The notes under the pieces: generated by a model | Seen by the model: the letters and a program-made list of their open reading frames with translations, nothing else | Told to the model about the DNA's origin: nothing | Databases searched by the model: none | Shown here: positions 29,178 to 38,444 of the stretch, one piece after another | How the letters are laid out: each line of letters opens with the position of its first letter | Numbering within the stretch: position 1 is the first letter of the stretch | From: Halomonas sp. M20 | GTDB taxonomy: Bacteria; Pseudomonadota; Gammaproteobacteria; Pseudomonadales; Halomonadaceae | Direction: 5' to 3' | DNA length: 64,000 bases | Assembly (NCBI RefSeq): GCF_020622265.1 | Contig: NZ_JACNMQ010000002.1 | Location: 62,001-126,000, forward strand | Made by a program: the position numbers and the translations under genes

Positions 29178-30317
29178 CTAGCGTGCCAGCAGGCGCCGGT
29201 GGCTTTGAATGGACATGAGAATACCGAAACCAGCCAGCAAGGTCACGCTGGAGGTCCCGCCGTAACTGACCAGCGGTAGCGGCACACCCACTACCGGCAA
29301 GATACCACTGACCATACCGATATTAACGAACACGTAAATAAAAAAGGTGAGTGTAATACTACCTGCCACCAAACGCCCGAAAGTATCCTGGGCGCTGTTG
29401 GCGATCACCAGCCCTCGGATCACGATCAGTAGATAGAGCGCCAGGATCAACACCATGCCGAACAACCCGAACTCCTCCCCCAGCACGGCAATGATGAAGT
29501 CCGTATGACGCTCCGGCAGAAATTCCAGCTGTGACTGGGTGCCCAGGGTCCAGCCTTTACCCTGTACTCCACCACTGCCGATAGCGGTGGTGGATTGAAT
29601 GATATTCCAGCCGGCACCCAACGGGTCGCTTTCCGGATTGAGAAAGGTCAATACACGCTGACGCTGATAGGCATGCATGTTGAGCCACAGCAGCGGCAAG
29701 GCCGCGCCGGCCGCTGCCCCTAGAAAGGCGATGAGACGCCAGGACAACCCCGCCAGCAATAGCACGAAGATCGCCGCGCAGGCGACCAGCAGAGAGGTTC
29801 CCAGATCCGGCTGTCGGGCGATCAGCATGATCGGCGCGCCGATGATCAGGGCGCAAACCAGAATGTCTCGAATACGCGGGGGCAAGGGGCGTCGATGCAG
29901 GTAAGCCGCCACCATCATGGGCATGGCCAGCTTCATCAGCTCCGAGGGCTGAAAACGTACGACCCCCGGGATTACCAGCCAGCGCTGGGCGCCCATACCC
30001 ACATCGCCCATCACCTCGACGGCCACCAGCATCAGAAAGCCCGCTAAATAGAGCGGCAGCGCCCAGCGGTACAGCGCACCGGGACTCAGTTGGGCCAATA
30101 CCAGCATGGTGACTATCGCCACCCCCAATCGAGTGACCTGGGCCGTCACTACCGGCAGGCGCTGCCCGCTGGCACTATAAAGGATCAAAAGCCCTGACAG
30201 CAGCAGCAGGAACAACAATCCCAGTAACCAGGGGTCGAGGTGGATACGGAACCAAAGACTCCGCCTCCGCTTGATGGTGCTGCCTCGATTGGGTAACAAA
30301 GACTCCTGCAAGGCCAT
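29178..30317 (-). CDS. rodA: Rod-shape determining protein RodA (peptidoglycan glycosyltransferase, SEDS family)
   Basis: Inner-membrane SEDS glycosyltransferase that polymerises lipid II for cell elongation, in complex with PBP2. About ten membrane helices; family motifs GMGAQRW, FQPSELMKLA, RQPDLGTSLLV and the C-terminal GVPLPLVSYGGTSSVTLLAGFGI. The start is ATG 30317 (MALQESLL), 4 bp after the mrdA stop; the longer frame to 30449 reads backwards through mrdA and is rejected. 379 residues. Confidence 0.96.
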   Translation of the reverse strand: MALQESLLPNRGSTIKRRRSLWFRIHLDPWLLGLLFLLLLSGLLILYSASGQRLPVVTAQVTRLGVAIVTMLVLAQLSPGALYRWALPLYLAGFLMLVAVEVMGDVGMGAQRWLVIPGVVRFQPSELMKLAMPMMVAAYLHRRPLPPRIRDILVCALIIGAPIMLIARQPDLGTSLLVACAAIFVLLLAGLSWRLIAFLGAAAGAALPLLWLNMHAYQRQRVLTFLNPESDPLGAGWNIIQSTTAIGSGGVQGKGWTLGTQSQLEFLPERHTDFIIAVLGEEFGLFGMVLILALYLLIVIRGLVIANSAQDTFGRLVAGSITLTFFIYVFVNIGMVSGILPVVGVPLPLVSYGGTSSVTLLAGFGILMSIQSHRRLLAR

Positions 30318-30321
30318 GGCG

Positions 30322-32205
30322 TCAGACTTCCTCGCTGGCGTCGGAAGTGTCGTCGGGTATCTCGGGCTTGTCTTCCCGCAATATCCACGCATCCAGCATC
30401 TTGCGCGCCAAGGGTCCCGCGTGACTGCTCCCGCCACCGGCGTTTTCAATGATCACGGCCACCGCAATTTCCGGCTTCTCGATCGGGGCAAAGGCGACGA
30501 AAAGGGCGTGATCGTGGAGCCGCTCCTCCAACTCCGCCGCGTTGTAGCGCTCATCGTTGGCCAGGGTGAACACCTGGGCCGTGCCGGATTTGCCAGCCAT
30601 GCGATAGGCCAGATCCTGGCCGGATCGACGCCCGGTGCCTTCGCTGCCGGTCATCACGTCCTCCATGGCCTTGTTGACCAGATCCCACCACTCATCGTTG
30701 GCCAACTCGATATTCTGCTTCGTCTCCGGCAACGTCAGCGGCTCATCGCCGACACGCCTGGCCAGGTGCGGTGCGATCCAATTGCCACGGTTGGCAAGCA
30801 CCGCCGTGGCGGTGGCCAGTTGCAGTGGCGTCGACAGCCAATAGCCTTGACCGATACCCACGGATAGCGTCTCCCCGGGAAACCAGACCTGGCCATAACG
30901 CGCCCGCTTCCACTCGCCGGAAGGCATGACGCCGCTGGCGGCACCATAAACATCGTGACTGGTTTCCTCACCGAAACCAAAGCGGTGCATGAACTCCGCC
31001 AAACGCTCGATCCCCAGCTCATGAGACAGGTTGTAGAAGTAGGTATCATTGGAGACCACGATGGCGCGGCGCATATTAACCCTGCCATGTCCCCAGCGTA
31101 GCCAGTTATGGTAGCGCCGCGAATGCTCGGGCAATTTGTAGAAACCCGGGTCGTAAATCGTCGTGTTCGGCGTAATGACGCCATTTTCAAGCCCTGCCAG
31201 GGCCTCGAAAGGTTTGATCGTCGATGCCGGCGGATATTGCCCTCGAATCGCACGATTGTAGAGAGGCAGGTCAGGGTTGTTTCTAAGCCCCCGGTAATCT
31301 TTGTGACTGATACCGGTAACGAACAGATTGGCATCGAACCCCGGAGAGGAGACCATGGCCAACAACTCGCCGCTGGCAGGCTCGATGGCCACGATGGACC
31401 CACGCCGGCCATCGAGCAGCTCATATCCCAGTTGCTGCAGCTCCTTATCGATGGTCAGTTTGATGTTCTGGCCCGGCACCGGATCGGTGCGGCCCAGCTC
31501 CCTCAGGACTCGCCCCCGAGCGTTGGTCTCGACCTTGCGTAGCCCCGCCTGGCCGTGCAGCACATCTTCGTACTCGCGCTCGACGCCGGTCTTGCCGATG
31601 AAGTGGGTGCCCGCATAATTGCCCTTGTCGAGGGTCTTGACCTCTTCGGCATTGATGCGCCCGACGTAGCCCAGCACATGGGACATGATGTCGGCATCGG
31701 GGTAGTACCGTAGTAATTGTGCCTCAACCTCGATGCCTGACAGGCGATAGCGATTGACCGCCAGCTGAGCGATCTGCTCTTCGTTCAATTCACTGAGTAA
31801 AAGCGCGGATTGATAGGGCCGCTGGCGCTGACGAGAGCGCTTCTTGAGGGTGGCGACATCCGTGTCCGGCAGGTCGAGAATATTCACCAGCAAGCTCAAG
31901 GTCGCGTCCAGATCGTCGACCCGCTCCGGCACGATAGTCAAGTTGTAGGTAGGACGGTTCTCCGCCAGCAACTGACCATCCCGATCCATGATCAACCCCC
32001 GATTTGGAGGCAAGGGCTCGACCCGCACACGATTCTGGTCGGAGCGGGTGATGAAAACCTCATGCTGAACCACCTGCAGATAGAACAGGCGTGCCACCAG
32101 CCCCAGGGACATCAGCAGAACCAGCACGACGGCCAGCAGGGAACGATTACGAAAGACGCGAACTTCCTGCTCGGGATCCTTCAGGGTTTCGCGGCGTTTA
32201 GACAT
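30322..32205 (-). CDS. mrdA: Penicillin-binding protein 2
   Basis: Elongation-specific transpeptidase, partner of RodA. An N-terminal membrane anchor is followed by the pedestal/dimerisation domain and the transpeptidase domain. Motifs: PPASTIKPFEAL (active-site Ser and Lys), VVSNDTYFYNL (SxN), and AGKSGTAQVF (KTG-type). The family's GKTGVEREYEDVLHG stretch is in the pedestal. 627 residues, typical. A 46-bp gap separates it from rlmH upstream. Confidence 0.96.
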   Translation of the reverse strand: MSKRRETLKDPEQEVRVFRNRSLLAVVLVLLMSLGLVARLFYLQVVQHEVFITRSDQNRVRVEPLPPNRGLIMDRDGQLLAENRPTYNLTIVPERVDDLDATLSLLVNILDLPDTDVATLKKRSRQRQRPYQSALLLSELNEEQIAQLAVNRYRLSGIEVEAQLLRYYPDADIMSHVLGYVGRINAEEVKTLDKGNYAGTHFIGKTGVEREYEDVLHGQAGLRKVETNARGRVLRELGRTDPVPGQNIKLTIDKELQQLGYELLDGRRGSIVAIEPASGELLAMVSSPGFDANLFVTGISHKDYRGLRNNPDLPLYNRAIRGQYPPASTIKPFEALAGLENGVITPNTTIYDPGFYKLPEHSRRYHNWLRWGHGRVNMRRAIVVSNDTYFYNLSHELGIERLAEFMHRFGFGEETSHDVYGAASGVMPSGEWKRARYGQVWFPGETLSVGIGQGYWLSTPLQLATATAVLANRGNWIAPHLARRVGDEPLTLPETKQNIELANDEWWDLVNKAMEDVMTGSEGTGRRSGQDLAYRMAGKSGTAQVFTLANDERYNAAELEERLHDHALFVAFAPIEKPEIAVAVIIENAGGGSSHAGPLARKMLDAWILREDKPEIPDDTSDASEEV

Positions 32206-32251
32206 GTAGAGGCTTCGTCTCGAAGTAGCTGAGGTCGATCATTATTTTGAA

Positions 32252-32719
32252 CTAGCGATGATAAGGATGACCGACTAGCAGTGTCCAGGCCCGATAGAGT
32301 TGTTCGCATAACAAAAGACGTACCAAGGGATGAGGAAGCGTAAGAGGAGACAAGGACCAACGCTGCTCCGCCTGGGCTGATAACTGGGGCTCGAGCCCAT
32401 CCGGTCCGCCTATCAGAAGCGCCACATCGCCCCCGCGATTGCGCCAGGCATCTGCCTGTTGCGCTAGCTGCTTGGTAGACCAAGGCTGCCCTGTCACCTC
32501 AAGGGCAACTCGATGATCGCTCTGTCGCAGGCGCTCTCGCATGCGCTGCCCTTCCTGCGCCACGGCGCGGGCCACATCCGCATTCTTGCCTCGGGTTCCC
32601 GGGGGGATTTCGACTATTTCCAAGGCAAAGTCCCGAGGCAGGCGTTTGCGATACTCGCCCACCCCCTGTTCTACCCAGCTCGGCATACGCTGGCCTACGG
32701 CAAGCAGGCGTACCTTCAT
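32252..32719 (-). CDS. rlmH: 23S rRNA (pseudouridine1915-N3)-methyltransferase
   Basis: SPOUT-class methyltransferase that modifies pseudouridine 1915 in helix 69 of 23S rRNA using SAM. The trefoil-knot region shows the GGPDGL loop and [17 protein letters not shown], and the C-terminus ends in the conserved HPYHR, whose last residues are needed for activity. 155 residues, the exact family size. The ATG overlaps the rsfS stop by 4 bp. Confidence 0.96.
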
Positions 32720-33078
32720 GCCTGACCCCCGCGCACCTCCTCTTCACCGTTGCCGGGCAAGTCGGACCACAGCCGCTCGAGATCGTATAAACGCCGAGCA
32801 TCGGGCAGCATGACATGCACGACCACATCGCCTAGATCCACCAGAACCCAATCAGCGCCTGTCCCGCCTTCGACGCCCAGAGGCCTGACCCCCGCCTCCT
32901 TGGCCTTTTCGACGACGTTCTCCGCCAAAGCGCTCACATGGCGTGTCGATGTGCCATTGGCGATCACCATGGTGTCGGTGACGCTGGTTAACGCTGCAAC
33001 GTCGAGTTCAGCAATCTCTTGCCCCTTGAGTTCTTCCAGGGCCCCCACCGCCAATATCTTCAATGCGTCGTTTTGCAT
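32716..33078 (-). CDS. rsfS: Ribosomal silencing factor RsfS
   Basis: Binds ribosomal protein uL14 and blocks subunit joining in starvation; also aids 50S assembly. Signature stretches: [40 protein letters not shown] and [11 protein letters not shown] take the ATG at 33078, with GAGGAG closely upstream (CT spacing), rather than 33114. The product is then 120 residues. Coupled to rlmH downstream. Confidence 0.95.
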
Positions 33079-33135
33079 AGCTCCTCGAGTAGTAAGACCA
33101 CCGTACAAGGTCACATTCTACCTTCATGACATCGC

Positions 33136-33774
33136 TTAGCGGTAAAGACCGCTGGATTGAATATAGGTTTCCACGGCACTTGGCAAGAGATACCGCACAC
33201 TCAGACCCGCCTGCAGCCGACGACGCAGTTCGGTAGCGGAAATATCCATGCTGCTGGGCAGGCGCAAATGCAAAAGCCGCCCCGCCGGTGTCGCAAACAA
33301 ACTCTCGCTACTTTCCACCTCGCGCCCCTTGATCAATGCCTTCAATGCATCCCCCGGCAAGGCTGCATGCCCCGGGCGGGCAATGACTACCAGATGAGAC
33401 AATTCGAAGAGCCGCTCGGGCTCATGCCATTCGGCAAGCTTGAGAAAGGCGTCGACCCCAAGCGCCATCACCAGCCGTGTCCGTTCGCCGAACTCCTCCC
33501 GCAATGAAGCCAATGTATCGACGGAATAAGAGGGCCCGGAGCGATGCAGCTCCCGGTCGTCTGCCCTCAGCCCTGGGGTATCGTCTATGCCTGCCGCGAG
33601 CATTGCAAGACGGTCGGTTGCAGCGACGCCCGGCGCCTCCCGATGGGGAGGCAGTTGGGACGGAATCATGTGCACTTGATCGAGAGATAGCATTTCGCAC
33701 AGTTCGACGGCGCTGCGCAGATGGCCGTGATGCACGGGATCGAAGGTTCCTCCGAGCATCGCGATTCTTCTCAT
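33136..33774 (-). CDS. nadD: Nicotinate-nucleotide adenylyltransferase
   Basis: Adenylates nicotinate mononucleotide to deamido-NAD, the penultimate step of NAD synthesis. The nucleotidyltransferase motif GGTFDPVHHGHLR is near the start, and the ISATELRRRLQAG motif (SxTxxR type) is near the end. ATG 33774 gives 212 residues, equal to E. coli NadD. In-frame starts at 33807, 33813 and 33819 would overlap proA. The ribosome-binding site is poor at all of them, so the choice rests on family length. Confidence 0.93.
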   Translation of the reverse strand: MRRIAMLGGTFDPVHHGHLRSAVELCEMLSLDQVHMIPSQLPPHREAPGVAATDRLAMLAAGIDDTPGLRADDRELHRSGPSYSVDTLASLREEFGERTRLVMALGVDAFLKLAEWHEPERLFELSHLVVIARPGHAALPGDALKALIKGREVESSESLFATPAGRLLHLRLPSSMDISATELRRRLQAGLSVRYLLPSAVETYIQSSGLYR

Positions 33775-33793
33775 GGGGGCAGCCGGGCCAGAC

Positions 33794-35089
33794 TCAGCTG
33801 CGCACATGGCCATCCCCAAGCACGACGTACTTGCGGGTGGTCAGGCCTTCAAGTCCTACCGGCCCCCGGGCATGAAGCTTGTTGGTGGATATGCCGATCT
33901 CGGCCCCGAGACCATACTCGAAGCCGTCGGCAAAACGCGTCGAGGCGTTGACCATCACCGAACTGGAATCCACCTCCGCCAGGAAGCGTCGCGCCAGGGT
34001 GTAGGATTCGGTGACGATGGCATCGGTATGCTGGGAACCGTAGCGCTCGATATGCGCCATGGCGGCATCGATACCCTCCACCACGCGAATGGCAAGAATT
34101 GGCGCCAGATATTCCGCCTGCCAGTCTTTGTCGCTGGCCAGCGCAATGTCCGGTAATACCTCCCGGGTTCGTTCGCAGCCGCGCAATTCGACGCCATGAG
34201 GCGCATAGGCTTCGGCTAGACGCGGCAGCAGCTCGGCAGCGATGGGCGCATCCAGCAGTAGCGTCTCGAGGGTATTGCAGGTGCCGTAGCGCTGGGTCTT
34301 GGCATTGAGCGCAATGGCCAACGCCTTGTCGAGATCGGCGCTGGCATCGACATAGACATGACAAACGCCGTCCAGATGCTTTATGACCGGCACTCGCGCT
34401 TCTCGAGACACCCGCTCGATCAGGGATTTTCCGCCACGGGGAATGATGACATCGACATATTCAGGCATGGTGATAAGATGCCCGACCGCTGCACGATCCG
34501 TCGTCGCCACCACCTGCACCGCAGCCTCAGGGATGTCGGCCTGCGCCAACCCTTTCGCGATGCAGGTGGCAATGGCCGCGTTGCTGTCCTGGGCCTCGGA
34601 GCCACCGCGCAGGATACAGGCATTGCCGGCTTTCAGACACAGGCTGGCTGCCTCAACCGTTACATTGGGGCGCGATTCGTAGATGATACCGATCACACCG
34701 ATGGGTACGCGCATCTGCCCGAGCTGAATACCGCTGGGCAGTGTACGCAAGCCATCGATTTCGCCTACAGGATCCGGCAGGGCGGCAACCTGGTTCACAC
34801 CTTCGATCATGGCCTCGATACGCGCTTCGTTCAACGCGAGTCGATCGAGCATAGCGTCATCAAGGCCGTTAGCGCGGGCGCGTTCCAGATCTCGAACATT
34901 GGCCTCGATCAAATCGATCCGCGCTGCATCGAGTTGTGCAGCAATGGCCACCAACGCGGCATTCTTGGCCCCCGACCCTATACGACGCAGCAGCGTGCTA
35001 CCCTGGCGGGCCTGAACCCCCACGGTGTTCATATAGGTGTCGATATCGGCACTGTCAGTCGTATTGTCCATCAGGTTGTGTCGTGACAT
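33794..35089 (-). CDS. proA: Gamma-glutamyl phosphate reductase
   Basis: NADPH-dependent reductase producing glutamate semialdehyde for proline, a compatible solute in halophiles. Aldehyde-dehydrogenase-like fold; the catalytic Cys lies in [14 protein letters not shown]. Other motifs: [30 protein letters not shown] and [13 protein letters not shown]. 431 residues, slightly longer than E. coli ProA through the N-terminus. Start ATG 35089 with GGAG about 10 nt upstream; ATG 35071 is possible. First gene of the long cluster down to lipA. The 144-bp gap to the divergent membrane gene should hold both promoters. Confidence 0.95.
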
Positions 35090-35233: not shown

Positions 35234-36091
35234 ATGAAGAGCAATTTCAAAGACGGGCTTTATCGCCTTACCCTACTGTTTGCTGCCGCCGCGTTACTAC
35301 TGCTGGCTACCACACCTCAGGATAGCGTATCTCAGGTATTATTGAGCGTCATCGGGCTTGGACTCTGTATCGTTGCGCTGGCGCGCCGCCTGGTCGTGTT
35401 TCCCGGCACATTTGCGCCTGTGCTGCTTGGTATCGCCTTGACACTGCTTTTATGGGCGGCGCCGGAGCGACATTTGCCATGGCTCTGGCTCTGGGCAGTG
35501 GTACTCATCCTGCCTCAACCCCCCTGGCTATGGTTGTTGCAGGGAGCGCTAGCGGTCTCCTGCTGGTGGCAGGTGGCGCCGGGAATCGATACCGAACAAG
35601 GTCTGCTAGCACTCATCCTATTGATGATATTGATGATGATGGGGTTTACACACAGCCTGACCGAGCTACCGCTACAGCGGGGCTTAATGAGACGCGCGCG
35701 TCTATCTTCCAAACGCCCATTGCATTCAGGACGACAATTGGCCAAGGAAGTACCGCTTGAAACGACCCGGTGCAGCCGCGAAGGCAGCTATGGCGAGTTA
35801 CTCCTCTTGCGCTGCTCGGGCCGCGATCTTCAGGTCATGCTGAACATACTCAACGCCGCCACTCGCAGTTACGAAACCTGTTTTCAGCTCAACAACCGAA
35901 CCCTGGCGACATTAATGGTCAGCCATGACATAGAGACGGGTCGCAAGCGACGTAGCGCGCTGCTCAACTCGCTATCGACTTCTTTCAAGGTGCGCTGTGC
36001 CACTCTGGTGCCTTCACTACTGCTCGAACCTCAACTCAAGGCATTCGATCAGCAGCAGCGCTCGATAGTGATTTTAGAAGAGAACGCCTAA
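35234..36091 (+). CDS. Membrane protein with a highly degenerate GGDEF-like domain (first of a pair)
   Basis: 285 residues. The N-terminal 145 form about five hydrophobic segments (for example residues 10-26, 36-52, 58-75, 82-98, 122-138). The C-terminal 140 are soluble. Their spacing of strands and helices can be laid over a diguanylate cyclase: QLNNRTLATLMV (218-229) falls where RxGGDEFxxLL would be, so GGDEF reads NNRTL, and the following helix SALLNSL fits. Signalling residues are thus absent, and c-di-GMP synthesis is not possible. I recognise no named family. Its stop codon shares one base with the next gene's start, and three genes in a row overlap, so they should act together. The function is unknown; a sensor or scaffold role is my inference. 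Confidence 0.6.
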   Translation: MKSNFKDGLYRLTLLFAAAALLLLATTPQDSVSQVLLSVIGLGLCIVALARRLVVFPGTFAPVLLGIALTLLLWAAPERHLPWLWLWAVVLILPQPPWLWLLQGALAVSCWWQVAPGIDTEQGLLALILLMILMMMGFTHSLTELPLQRGLMRRARLSSKRPLHSGRQLAKEVPLETTRCSREGSYGELLLLRCSGRDLQVMLNILNAATRSYETCFQLNNRTLATLMVSHDIETGRKRRSALLNSLSTSFKVRCATLVPSLLLEPQLKAFDQQQRSIVILEENA

Positions 36092-37041
36092 TGCCTGCCC
36101 GAAGTAACATGAATTCCTGGTCATCGCGCCTTACCCTACTTGTCTATGCCAGTGGTACGCTGCTTGTCACGAGCTATGCCATATGGAATTACTTGATGGG
36201 CGCCTATGGGCGTATCCTGCTGCCGGCACTGCTTACGCTACTATTGGGAGGGGCACTCTTTCTTCGCTCTATCAACAGGAACGATTACCGACTCTGCGCC
36301 TATCTAACCTTGATCAGCTGCTATCTGCTGGTTGCCATCGAGCTACCCGGCCTAGGGGACTCTTCGAGACTATGGCTTGGGCTGCCGCCAGTCCTGACGC
36401 TTCTGCTGCTATCCCTCGGATCGGCGCTACTGCTCAATCTGATGATGGCACCGATTTGGCTGATATTGATCAATCAGGAATCACTGCTTCTCGACAACGC
36501 ATTGCATTATCTGGCACTGGTGAGCGTAGCGGCACTTCCTTATTGGCTACGCCGGCAGCGCGAAATGCTACTGAGCGCTGCAGATACGCTGGACAAGCAA
36601 TGCGACGCACTGTCACAAACCGCACTGACCGAACACCTCCATGCGGAAGTCGAGCGCGCCAGAACGATGCAGCGTCCGCTGACTGTTCTGATCATACATT
36701 TGCCGCAACTGGAAATGGCCGACGAGCAGTTCGGGAGCACGCTACTGCACAGTCTGCTGGAGCGGATATGTCATACGGTACACAGCGGCAGCCGCTATCA
36801 CGATCGGCTCGGTCGTCATCAGACCCAGCTATTCTGGCTACTGCTTCCTGATACAGGAGAAGCCGGCGCCTTGATCGTACGTGAACGCCTTTTACATGCT
36901 CTGGGCCGTGAAGTGTTCGCCGAAACCGGTGCCATCCAGTCACGTATTCGGGCGTGTCACTTGCAGCCTGGCGAAGACGGTACGCACTTTGAGCAACGCC
37001 TGCTGGCCAGTGGCCTCAAGTTGATGGAGCCAAGGCCTTGA
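36091..37041 (+). CDS. Membrane protein with a degenerate GGDEF domain (second of a pair)
   Basis: 316 residues. About six membrane helices in the first 155 residues (MASE-like), then a GGDEF-like domain. RPLTVLIIHLPQLEMADEQF (195-214) corresponds to the first strand and the substrate helix, and RHQTQLFWLLLP (242-253) to RxGGDEFxxLLP, so GGDEF is replaced by QTQLF. The later PGEDGTHFEQRLLASGLKLM fits the last helix. All catalytic and inhibitory-site residues I would look for are missing. Overlap with the genes on both sides (1 bp and 4 bp) makes co-translation likely. Degenerate GGDEF domains in other bacteria can act as GTP or c-di-GMP sensors; here only protein-protein signalling seems plausible, and that is inference. 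Confidence 0.68.
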   Translation: MPARSNMNSWSSRLTLLVYASGTLLVTSYAIWNYLMGAYGRILLPALLTLLLGGALFLRSINRNDYRLCAYLTLISCYLLVAIELPGLGDSSRLWLGLPPVLTLLLLSLGSALLLNLMMAPIWLILINQESLLLDNALHYLALVSVAALPYWLRRQREMLLSAADTLDKQCDALSQTALTEHLHAEVERARTMQRPLTVLIIHLPQLEMADEQFGSTLLHSLLERICHTVHSGSRYHDRLGRHQTQLFWLLLPDTGEAGALIVRERLLHALGREVFAETGAIQSRIRACHLQPGEDGTHFEQRLLASGLKLMEPRP

Positions 37042-38444
37042 GTACGACCGAGTGGCTTCAGAGTCTGGCACCGTCTCCCGAGTGGTTATTGCTGTTCATC
37101 GCGCTCATTTCGCTGTTCGAATCCCTGGCGTTAGTCGGCCTGGTGGTTCCCGGCGTGATATTGATCACCGCCGCCGCCTCGTTGGCCGGGCACCACGACC
37201 TTTCGATCGCCCTGGTCTTGCTGTGTGCTTTTCTAGGAGCGGTGATTGGCGACGGCCTGAGCTTTTGGCTCGGCCAGGCCCAGCGTCAACGCATTCCCTC
37301 ACTGTGGCCCTTTCGTCAACACCCGGAATGGTTGACGCGAGGGACACTGTTCTTTCAGCGCTATGGCGTGCTTTCGGTTCTTATCGGGCGTTTCGTCGGT
37401 CCGGTGCGCCCCATCGTCCCGATGATTGCCGGTATGATGCATATGCGCACAAGCCTCTTCTTGTGGTCCAACTTCGGCTCGGCACTACTCTGGGCGCCCG
37501 CTTACTTACTGCCGGGCTACCTGCTTGGAAAGACCTGGCAGCAACTGCTGGACATGCCACCGGGCAGTAAAGGCTGGTTGATCTTGCTGGCCTCTTCGGT
37601 GCTTGCCCTGGCGCTGATATTCTCGTTGTTGCGCCATCAATTGGCGCGCGAGGGCTGGGTCTATCGCCAACTGGCCTACTCTGCTCGCGCTAGTCGCTGG
37701 CAACGCTGGCTTTGGAACACCTTGCGTTCACCGCGCCCCAGCGGGGAATTTCCCCTGGCATCGTTGGTGTTGCTGTTCATCAGCCTACCGGTCTTGAGTG
37801 GCTGGACACTCTGGGTACTCGAACAGCAAGGTCCATTACCCATGGATCTGAGTCTGCAAAATCTCATTAACGGGCTGGTCGGCCCGGTAATGATCCAAGT
37901 CGCCGTCTGGATGGCCGAAGCTGGCGACACCCTGGGTGTCATTGTCCTGATAATGCCTTGGGTGGCCTGGCTACTTTTCCGGCACCAGTACGCAGCCTTG
38001 CTTCATTTGATAGGCGGGCTCGGCGGCATCGCTCTGGCCAACACGCTATTCAAGCACCTGGCCGGGCGCGTGCGTCCGGATATCCCCGACTATCTCGCCG
38101 GCTCCTTTTCCTATCCCAGTGCCCATACCTCCACCGCGGTGGTGCTCTATGGACTGGCGGCAGCCTTCGTGGCCGAAACCTTGCCCTCACGGCATCGTGC
38201 ACTGGCCTATTGGGGCGCCATCATCATCTGCGTACCCATGGCGCTGTCACGCCTGATCATCGGGGTGCATTGGTTCAGCGACCTGATAGGCGGCGCCCTG
38301 CTCGGATTGGTAACCTGCGCCCTGGTGCGCATCAGCTATCATGGCTTCGCCACACGTCCATTAAGCAAACCACCCTGGATAACGCTCAGCCTCATCACAG
38401 TGGCACTGCTGGTAGCGCGTATTTTCTGGCTGCCCCCGGTTTAG
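37038..38444 (+). CDS. DedA (VTT) - PAP2 phosphatase fusion membrane protein
   Basis: 468 residues, TTG start overlapping the upstream stop. The N-terminal half is a DedA/SNARE-associated (VTT) domain: FESLALVGLVVPG, GDGLSFWLG, FQRYGVLSVLIGRFVGPVRP; such proteins move undecaprenyl phosphate or phospholipids across the membrane. The C-terminal half is a PAP2 lipid phosphatase with the complete three-part active site: KHLAGRVRP, YPSAHTS and SRLIIGVHWFSD. A protein with both could flip and dephosphorylate lipid pyrophosphates such as undecaprenyl diphosphate, freeing carrier for wall synthesis, consistent with the wall genes on the other side of proA. The substrate is inferred, not shown. Confidence 0.88.
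   Translation: MSTTEWLQSLAPSPEWLLLFIALISLFESLALVGLVVPGVILITAAASLAGHHDLSIALVLLCAFLGAVIGDGLSFWLGQAQRQRIPSLWPFRQHPEWLTRGTLFFQRYGVLSVLIGRFVGPVRPIVPMIAGMMHMRTSLFLWSNFGSALLWAPAYLLPGYLLGKTWQQLLDMPPGSKGWLILLASSVLALALIFSLLRHQLAREGWVYRQLAYSARASRWQRWLWNTLRSPRPSGEFPLASLVLLFISLPVLSGWTLWVLEQQGPLPMDLSLQNLINGLVGPVMIQVAVWMAEAGDTLGVIVLIMPWVAWLLFRHQYAALLHLIGGLGGIALANTLFKHLAGRVRPDIPDYLAGSFSYPSAHTSTAVVLYGLAAAFVAETLPSRHRALAYWGAIIICVPMALSRLIIGVHWFSDLIGGALLGLVTCALVRISYHGFATRPLSKPPWITLSLITVALLVARIFWLPPV

Follow-up and report, generated by a model that had tools for sequence, protein, structure and literature searches.

The stretch of Halomonas sp. M20 analysed here (64,000 nucleotides, hereafter the window) carries three co-directional genes, flanked by opposite-strand genes on both sides, which we call G1, G2 and DP (Table 1). 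G1 and G2 each encode a membrane protein, hydropathy indicating several hydrophobic segments within residues 7–145 of G1 and 35–128 of G2, followed by a GGDEF-related C-terminal domain, and DP encodes a DedA-PAP2 fusion. G1 and G2 overlap by 1 bp, and G2 and DP by 4 bp, the TTG start of DP overlapping the stop of G2. These open reading frames, their lengths, strands and overlaps are as given in an initial annotation made from the sequence alone, and the tight gene coupling that it claimed is borne out. Beyond this layout, the analysis establishes a duplication of G1 and G2, the loss of the catalytic motif in both, the retention of the residues of the product-inhibition site (I-site) and purifying selection on the pair.

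By profile comparison, the C-terminal domains of G1 and G2 are GGDEF-derived. Aligned with HHalign to 20 other membrane GGDEF proteins with an intact or near-intact motif, the G2 family gave an E-value of 1.6e-22 (probability 99.5%) and the G1 family of Halomonadaceae 2.3e-8 (95%), residues 145–285 of G1 alone reaching 4.9e-6 (86%). In both genes the residues standing in place of the motif, NNRTL at 220–224 of G1 and QTQLF at 244–248 of G2, aligned exactly to GGEEF, as had been proposed. Moreover, G2 is over the Pfam GGDEF cut-off (30.3 bits vs 23.8), and its profile matched 44 distinct sequences of solved GGDEF structures at E up to 0.001 (best 1.4e-21). The window G1 gave no Pfam match at E up to 1; of the 28 aligned G1 sequences, four matched Pfam GGDEF with E-values no higher than 0.1 (best 1.3e-14), and the G1 profile, which includes less degenerate relatives, matched the solved structures weakly (best E 2.9e-5). 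For the N-terminal part, the MASE6 sensor domain stayed under its Pfam cut-off of 27.4 bits in the window G2 (14.1 bits) as well as in the G2 of locus L211 (21.0 bits).

Conservation was counted over 83 G1 and 82 G2 sequences, non-redundant over their last 120 residues (sequences identical to another over that length were left out, as was the split gene 2 of L126 and L193), and over 20 outgroup membrane GGDEF proteins, a non-random sample hand-picked from among the remaining matches of the search across the order, with preference for high scores and protein-like frame lengths. GG[DE]EF was found in none of the G1 or G2 sequences and in 19 of the 20 outgroup proteins, the twentieth having AGDEF. 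The FKxxND region of G2 has equally drifted, with K208 kept in 1, N211 in 3 and D212 in 14 of the 82 sequences and in 20/20 of the outgroup at each position, and G1 is without 14 columns around this region in the profile alignment. The RxxD of the I-site, on the other hand, is kept in all 82 G2 sequences, in 19 of the 83 G1 sequences and in 19 of the 20 outgroup proteins. In fact, only E186, R189, R235, D238 and R303 are invariant in G2. The PleD site is described as made up of R359, D362 and R390 from its own domain and R313 from the adjacent domain (PMC7288161), and three of these four positions are among the five invariant positions of G2 (of 316), an overlap whose hand-computed chance, about 8e-6, assumes all positions to be alike, which they are not. 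The spacings of 46, 3 and 31 residues are identical between R313, R359, D362 and R390 of PleD and R189, R235, D238 and R266 of G2, the profile match covering 96 positions on each side (173–268 of G2 to 299–394 of PleD). R235 and D238 stand nine and six residues before residue 244, the position of the lost motif, and the same distances from GGEEF are reported for the I-site RxxD (PMC2170427).

In a tree of the GGDEF part with 38 other domains, G1, G2 and G1 plus G2 each formed a clade (FastTree supports 0.951, 0.949 and 0.962), and a tree from the full-length alignment, midpoint-rooted because the outgroup did not form a clade, gave supports of 0.641 (G1), 0.979 (G2) and 0.949 (G1 plus G2). On account of these clades the pair is most likely a tandem duplication predating four families, that of the window (f1) and those labelled f7, f20 and f38; neither this paralogy nor the complete I-site of G2 had been noticed in the initial annotation. 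The RxxD of G1 is present in 1/65 sequences of the window's family, 2/2 of f7, 9/9 of f20 and 7/7 of f38, and the arginine corresponding to R179 of G1 in 65/65, 2/2, 9/9 and 6/7, respectively. The simplest reading of these sequences would be an ancestor with two I-site proteins; in the window's family G1 would then have lost its primary site while retaining the arginine whose PleD counterpart extends into the neighbour's site. Both genes are under purifying selection: compared with three relatives, the ratio of non-synonymous to synonymous substitution (dN/dS) was 0.060–0.093 for G2 and 0.128–0.186 for G1, with 0.075–0.098 for DP and 0.071–0.099 for ProA, although several dS values above 1 make the more distant comparisons rough. 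The two GGDEF-derived proteins had been called ruined, a label that these ratios contradict.

We propose, with a probability of roughly 60%, that G1 and G2 are a membrane receptor pair for cyclic diguanylate (c-di-GMP) descended from a duplicated I-site cyclase, G2 being the binder and G1 its pseudo-partner. A membrane-bound diguanylate cyclase with a product-inhibition site would have been duplicated into G1 and G2, both copies would have lost catalysis, and G2 would have kept the c-di-GMP-binding I-site as a membrane-anchored receptor. By analogy with known I-site receptors, G2 very likely binds c-di-GMP, which is presumably made in the host since the genome has 19 GGDEF matches, G2 included. 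A complex of G1 with G2 is probable, and the DedA half of DP, where present, is a tentative candidate for the target.

Among such receptors, set beside G2 by their published descriptions, YdaK of Bacillus subtilis binds c-di-GMP, and dead-GGDEF proteins with RxxD are reported to act as receptors (PMC7064775). Like G2, YdaK is a membrane protein that combines a degenerate GGDEF domain with an I-site arginine; this arginine is described as required both to bind c-di-GMP and to contact a second GGDEF protein, and the operon of YdaK is assumed to make an envelope polymer, thought to be an exopolysaccharide (PMC7064775). Yet YdaK is a single gene product with 4 transmembrane helices whose partner is the active cyclase DgcK (PMC7064775), whereas G2 is accompanied by a tandem paralogue that is itself dead and by a neighbouring DedA-PAP2 gene. 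Similarly, PssE of Listeria monocytogenes has an inactive GGDEF motif (DKDDA) with RxxD upstream and is reported to bind two c-di-GMP per molecule, but it is the last gene of an exopolysaccharide cluster with one such receptor described (PMC4125290). PelD of Pseudomonas aeruginosa, a c-di-GMP receptor of the inner membrane, likewise lacks the GGDEF motif and carries an I-site-like RxxD, but differs in lying in the pel exopolysaccharide operon (PMC2170427). As far as these descriptions go, the dead-cyclase receptors YdaK, PssE and PelD all belong to exopolysaccharide gene sets. In PleD and WspR the I-site inhibits a working cyclase (PMC7288161, PMC2270323), while G2 has no cyclase left to inhibit. 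G2 shares with the YdaK and PssE type both a GGDEF domain without the catalytic motif, as seen by sequence profile, and the placement of RxxD; G1 fails on RxxD, which it mostly lacks overall and almost wholly in the window's family. Thus G2 would belong to the known I-site receptors, and what appears to be new is a pair of dead tandem copies between which the sites are apparently split, together with its DedA-PAP2 neighbour.

In the proposed receptor, as c-di-GMP rises, an intercalated dimer would bind R235, D238 and R266 of G2, and the bound dimer would lock G2 to a partner pseudo-GGDEF domain through an arginine of the R189 type on that partner. For this role G1, without the primary site but with the secondary-site arginine, would be a good candidate in the window's family, giving one asymmetric c-di-GMP site per G1-G2 heterodimer. 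The locked complex may in turn alter the state of a membrane partner, for which the overlapping or adjacent DedA(-PAP2) protein is the candidate in most family genomes. A more specific form of the proposal, which we consider unlikely as it stands, is a split I-site in which G2 would supply the primary site and G1 the secondary arginine, a c-di-GMP dimer gluing the two together and gating a DedA-type lipid-carrier protein; G1 would then be a dead paralogue without a primary site of its own and without most of the GTP-binding loop.

Several points weigh against the receptor pair and its split site. Since R189 is retained in G2 as well, two G2 molecules could complete the site symmetrically without G1. 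An arginine at position 189 is also found in 9 of the 20 outgroup proteins, so it is enriched in G2 and not unique to it. The secondary arginine of WspR is placed differently (R198 with R242; PMC2270323), the position being described as variable among cyclases (PMC8041772); the role assigned to R189 therefore relies on the comparison with PleD. Both RxxD and R390 are described as conserved in GGDEF members generally (PMC7288161); RxxD, found in 19 of the 20 outgroup proteins, was presumably already in the ancestor, and part of the I-site conservation could be an inherited constraint of the fold. Moreover, the counts cover related sequences and not independent events.

As to the target, DP has a VTT domain (61.3 bits vs a Pfam cut-off of 33.9) and a PAP2 domain, whose active site is complete, as had been claimed (K339, R346, H363, R405, H411 and D415). 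The second PAP2 motif reads PSAH instead of PSGH in the window (38115–38126), and among the 42 relatives with the full motif this variable place is A in 29, G in 12 and S in 1. DedA proteins fused to PAP2 have been described before (PMC10127716), and DP is a putative undecaprenyl-phosphate carrier protein. The six PAP2 residues are present in the window and in 45 of the 48 other complete named relatives, the DP of L177, which ends at a contig edge, being left out of the PAP2 and DedA counts. All six are lost in L150 (Halomonas sp. McH1-25), L152 (M. luteus) and L153 (M. xianhensis), where GRFVGPVRP of the DedA part is intact and the PAP2 half is, judging by its residues, a pseudo-enzyme, a reading made in L112 as well. 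With PAP2 dead in three relatives and the DedA stretch in 49/49, the DedA half would be the constant part, if DP is a partner at all.

In all 49 named loci found with G2 as query, where G2 is present by construction, the order was ProA on the opposite strand and then G1, G2 and DP, an arrangement that is not due to chance. According to the record titles, these loci come from Halomonas, Modicisalibacter, Litchfieldella, Billgrantia, Onishia, Franzmannia, Bisbaumannia and one Halomonadaceae metagenome-assembled genome. Among 37 family genomes, that of the window included, 29 had the pair and DP (one of them G021, with gene 2 split), two the pair only, six DP only and none neither. The initial G1 search found the gene in 26 of 58 genomes, and diverged G1 genes were found upstream of G2 in seven more (G016, G034, G036, G042, G055, G015 and G017); position and alignment were the grounds for accepting these seven, and since they were subsequently added to the G1 profile, later matches to them or their close kin are non-independent. 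The six pair-less genomes with DP (loci L094–L099) group as one clade in a tree of ProA alone, which suggests a single loss of the pair. In Bisbaumannia pacifica gene 2 is split by a frameshift (L126:4178-5091 and L193), either real or a sequencing error. G1 matches at 1e-20 or better were found in at least 27 of 244 genomes of the order (8 in the window's family, 2 in f7, 9 in f20 and 8 in f38), and in a sample of 274 genomes of the class this threshold was reached by that of the window alone; as each search scored no more than the 8 or 9 best candidates of a genome, these counts are lower bounds. Spread of the pair by plasmids was considered and dropped, with one weak match to 35% of G2 among 72,556 plasmid records.

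The most serious alternative is that G1 and G2 are a c-di-GMP receptor pair with a target other than DP, which would merely be a conserved neighbour in a conserved region; we regard this as possible, if not favoured. The pair stands without DP, and with the I-site kept, in two family genomes (G015 and G017), and DP stands without the pair in six (G020, G022 and G028–G031), so DP need not be the target; presence and absence show no association and were dropped as proof of a link. In f38 the pair lacks a PAP2 neighbour in 8/8 sampled genomes having it and an adjacent DedA gene in 7/8: a DedA-only gene lies 19 bp downstream in one (L211) and about 1 kb off, beyond an opposite-strand gene, in five, and no DedA gene was found in the stretch examined in two. 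Synteny by itself is weak evidence, since the surrounding genes proA, nadD, rlmH, ubiX and mpl are likewise largely conserved. Against this alternative, G2 and DP are co-directional and closely spaced, with the 4-bp overlap in 21 of the 48 named loci with a complete DP (by automatic start choice) and distances of +2 to +72 in the others, and a DedA-PAP2 gene also follows the pair in f7 (2/2) and f20 (9/9). The initial annotation had the pair controlling a lipid-carrier enzyme; of this the usual neighbourhood stands, the three genes staying together across most of the family, but the link is weaker than claimed, and wide occurrence of the pair without DedA-PAP2, which it had named as evidence against its view, was seen in part. 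As a separate observation, a conserved opposite-strand gene follows the pair in 7/7 of the f38 stretches L204–L210, that of L205 matching leucine carboxyl methyltransferase (PF04072, E 7.9e-16).

A role of the pair as a sensor or scaffold in the membrane that needs no nucleotide, the I-site residues being a relic held by the fold, is in our view improbable. It would agree with the RxxD of the outgroup cyclase-like proteins, and with the window-family G1, which has lost RxxD yet is still under selection. However, of the 18 GGDEF domains that this genome encodes besides that of G2, 8 have RxxD and 10 do not, and RxxD is missing in 64 of the 65 family G1 sequences, so the fold does not need it. 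Of the four such domains without GG[DE]EF, those with AGGEL, CGNEF and NGSDF are without RxxD and that with GGDDF has it. Moreover, RxxD is fixed throughout G2 while the catalytic positions drift. The sensor or scaffold pair put forward earlier survives as a likely sensor pair, a ligand-free scaffold being far less likely than a c-di-GMP receptor because G2 keeps a complete I-site.

Continued synthesis of c-di-GMP, or of a different nucleotide, by G2 through an altered motif is very improbable: activity is reported for some cyclases with the variant AGDEF (PMC3974145), but in G2 the Lys, Asn and Asp of FKxxND are gone besides the motif. Decay of G1 and G2 as pseudogenes is hardly credible, for although the cyclase motif is lost, gene 2 is split in B. 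pacifica and six related family genomes lack the pair, the dN/dS values lie at 0.06–0.19, frames and gene order are kept in the other named loci, and the pair occurs in four families.

Around the three genes, the opposite strand at 29178–35089 carries what we take to be a cell-wall and housekeeping run (rodA/mrdB-like, PBP2-like, rlmH, RsfS-like, nadD and proA), and beyond DP, again on the opposite strand, lie presumably a LysE-type gene, ubiX and mpl. The gene for PA4011, a DedA-PAP2 protein of P. aeruginosa, presumably lies near proA too, as DP does. The order of rlmH, nadD and proA is retained in most of the relatives' stretches examined. In the L123 contig both mpl and rlmH seem split across frames, a hint of sequencing errors there.

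Table 1. Features of the G1-G2-DP locus in window coordinates
Feature	Position	Strand	Remark
proA	33794-35089	opposite strand	name presumed from sequence
G1, membrane protein with pseudo-GGDEF domain	35234-36091	+	285 aa, ATG start
G1 hydrophobic part, residues 7-145 (approximate)	35252..35668	+	by hydropathy
G1 R179, counterpart of G2 R189/PleD R313, putative secondary I-site arginine	35768..35770	+	82/83 G1; 65/65 in the window's family
G1 NNRTL at the position of GGDEF	35891..35905	+	aligned to GGEEF; GG[DE]EF 0/83
G2, membrane protein with degenerate GGDEF domain and I-site, proposed c-di-GMP receptor	36091-37041	+	316 aa, ATG start
G2 R189 (PleD R313)	36655..36657	+	82/82
G2 RYHD, residues 235-238, I-site RxxD (PleD R359, D362)	36793..36804	+	82/82
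G2 QTQLF at the position of GGDEF	36820..36834	+	aligned to GGEEF; GG[DE]EF 0/82
G2 R266 (PleD R390)	36886..36888	+	R in 80/82, K in 2
DP, DedA (VTT)-PAP2 fusion, usual neighbour and candidate target	37038-38444	+	468 aa, TTG start
DedA stretch GRFVGPVRP, residues 117-125	37386..37412	+	[GA]R[FL]xGPxRP in 49/49 complete proteins
PAP2 catalytic stretch, residues 339-415	38052..38282	+	KxxxxxxRP, PSAH, SRx5HxxxD

In searches of the open-licence PMC literature no listed title or abstract start described the G1-G2-DP gene set, no paper was returned that combines DedA with c-di-GMP and degenerate, and none that combines undecaprenyl with c-di-GMP, GGDEF, I-site and phosphatase; PMC6355987 contains DedA, PAP2 and GGDEF, its sole mention of GGDEF being in the reference list. 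PA4011 has the same domain order as DP; its function is called elusive and is reported to be probably not the flip-back of undecaprenyl phosphate (C55-P), and no GGDEF neighbour is mentioned in the portions available of that paper (PMC12893004).

As a conserved tandem pair of which one copy is perhaps only the partner half of a site, G1 and G2 would illustrate the turning of an inhibitory site into a two-protein switch. If the split-site switch is true, it would tie c-di-GMP directly to the undecaprenyl-phosphate pool and not to one polysaccharide synthase. The pair offers a testable handle on PA4011-type proteins, and a possible c-di-GMP route to the lipid carrier shared by envelope polymers.

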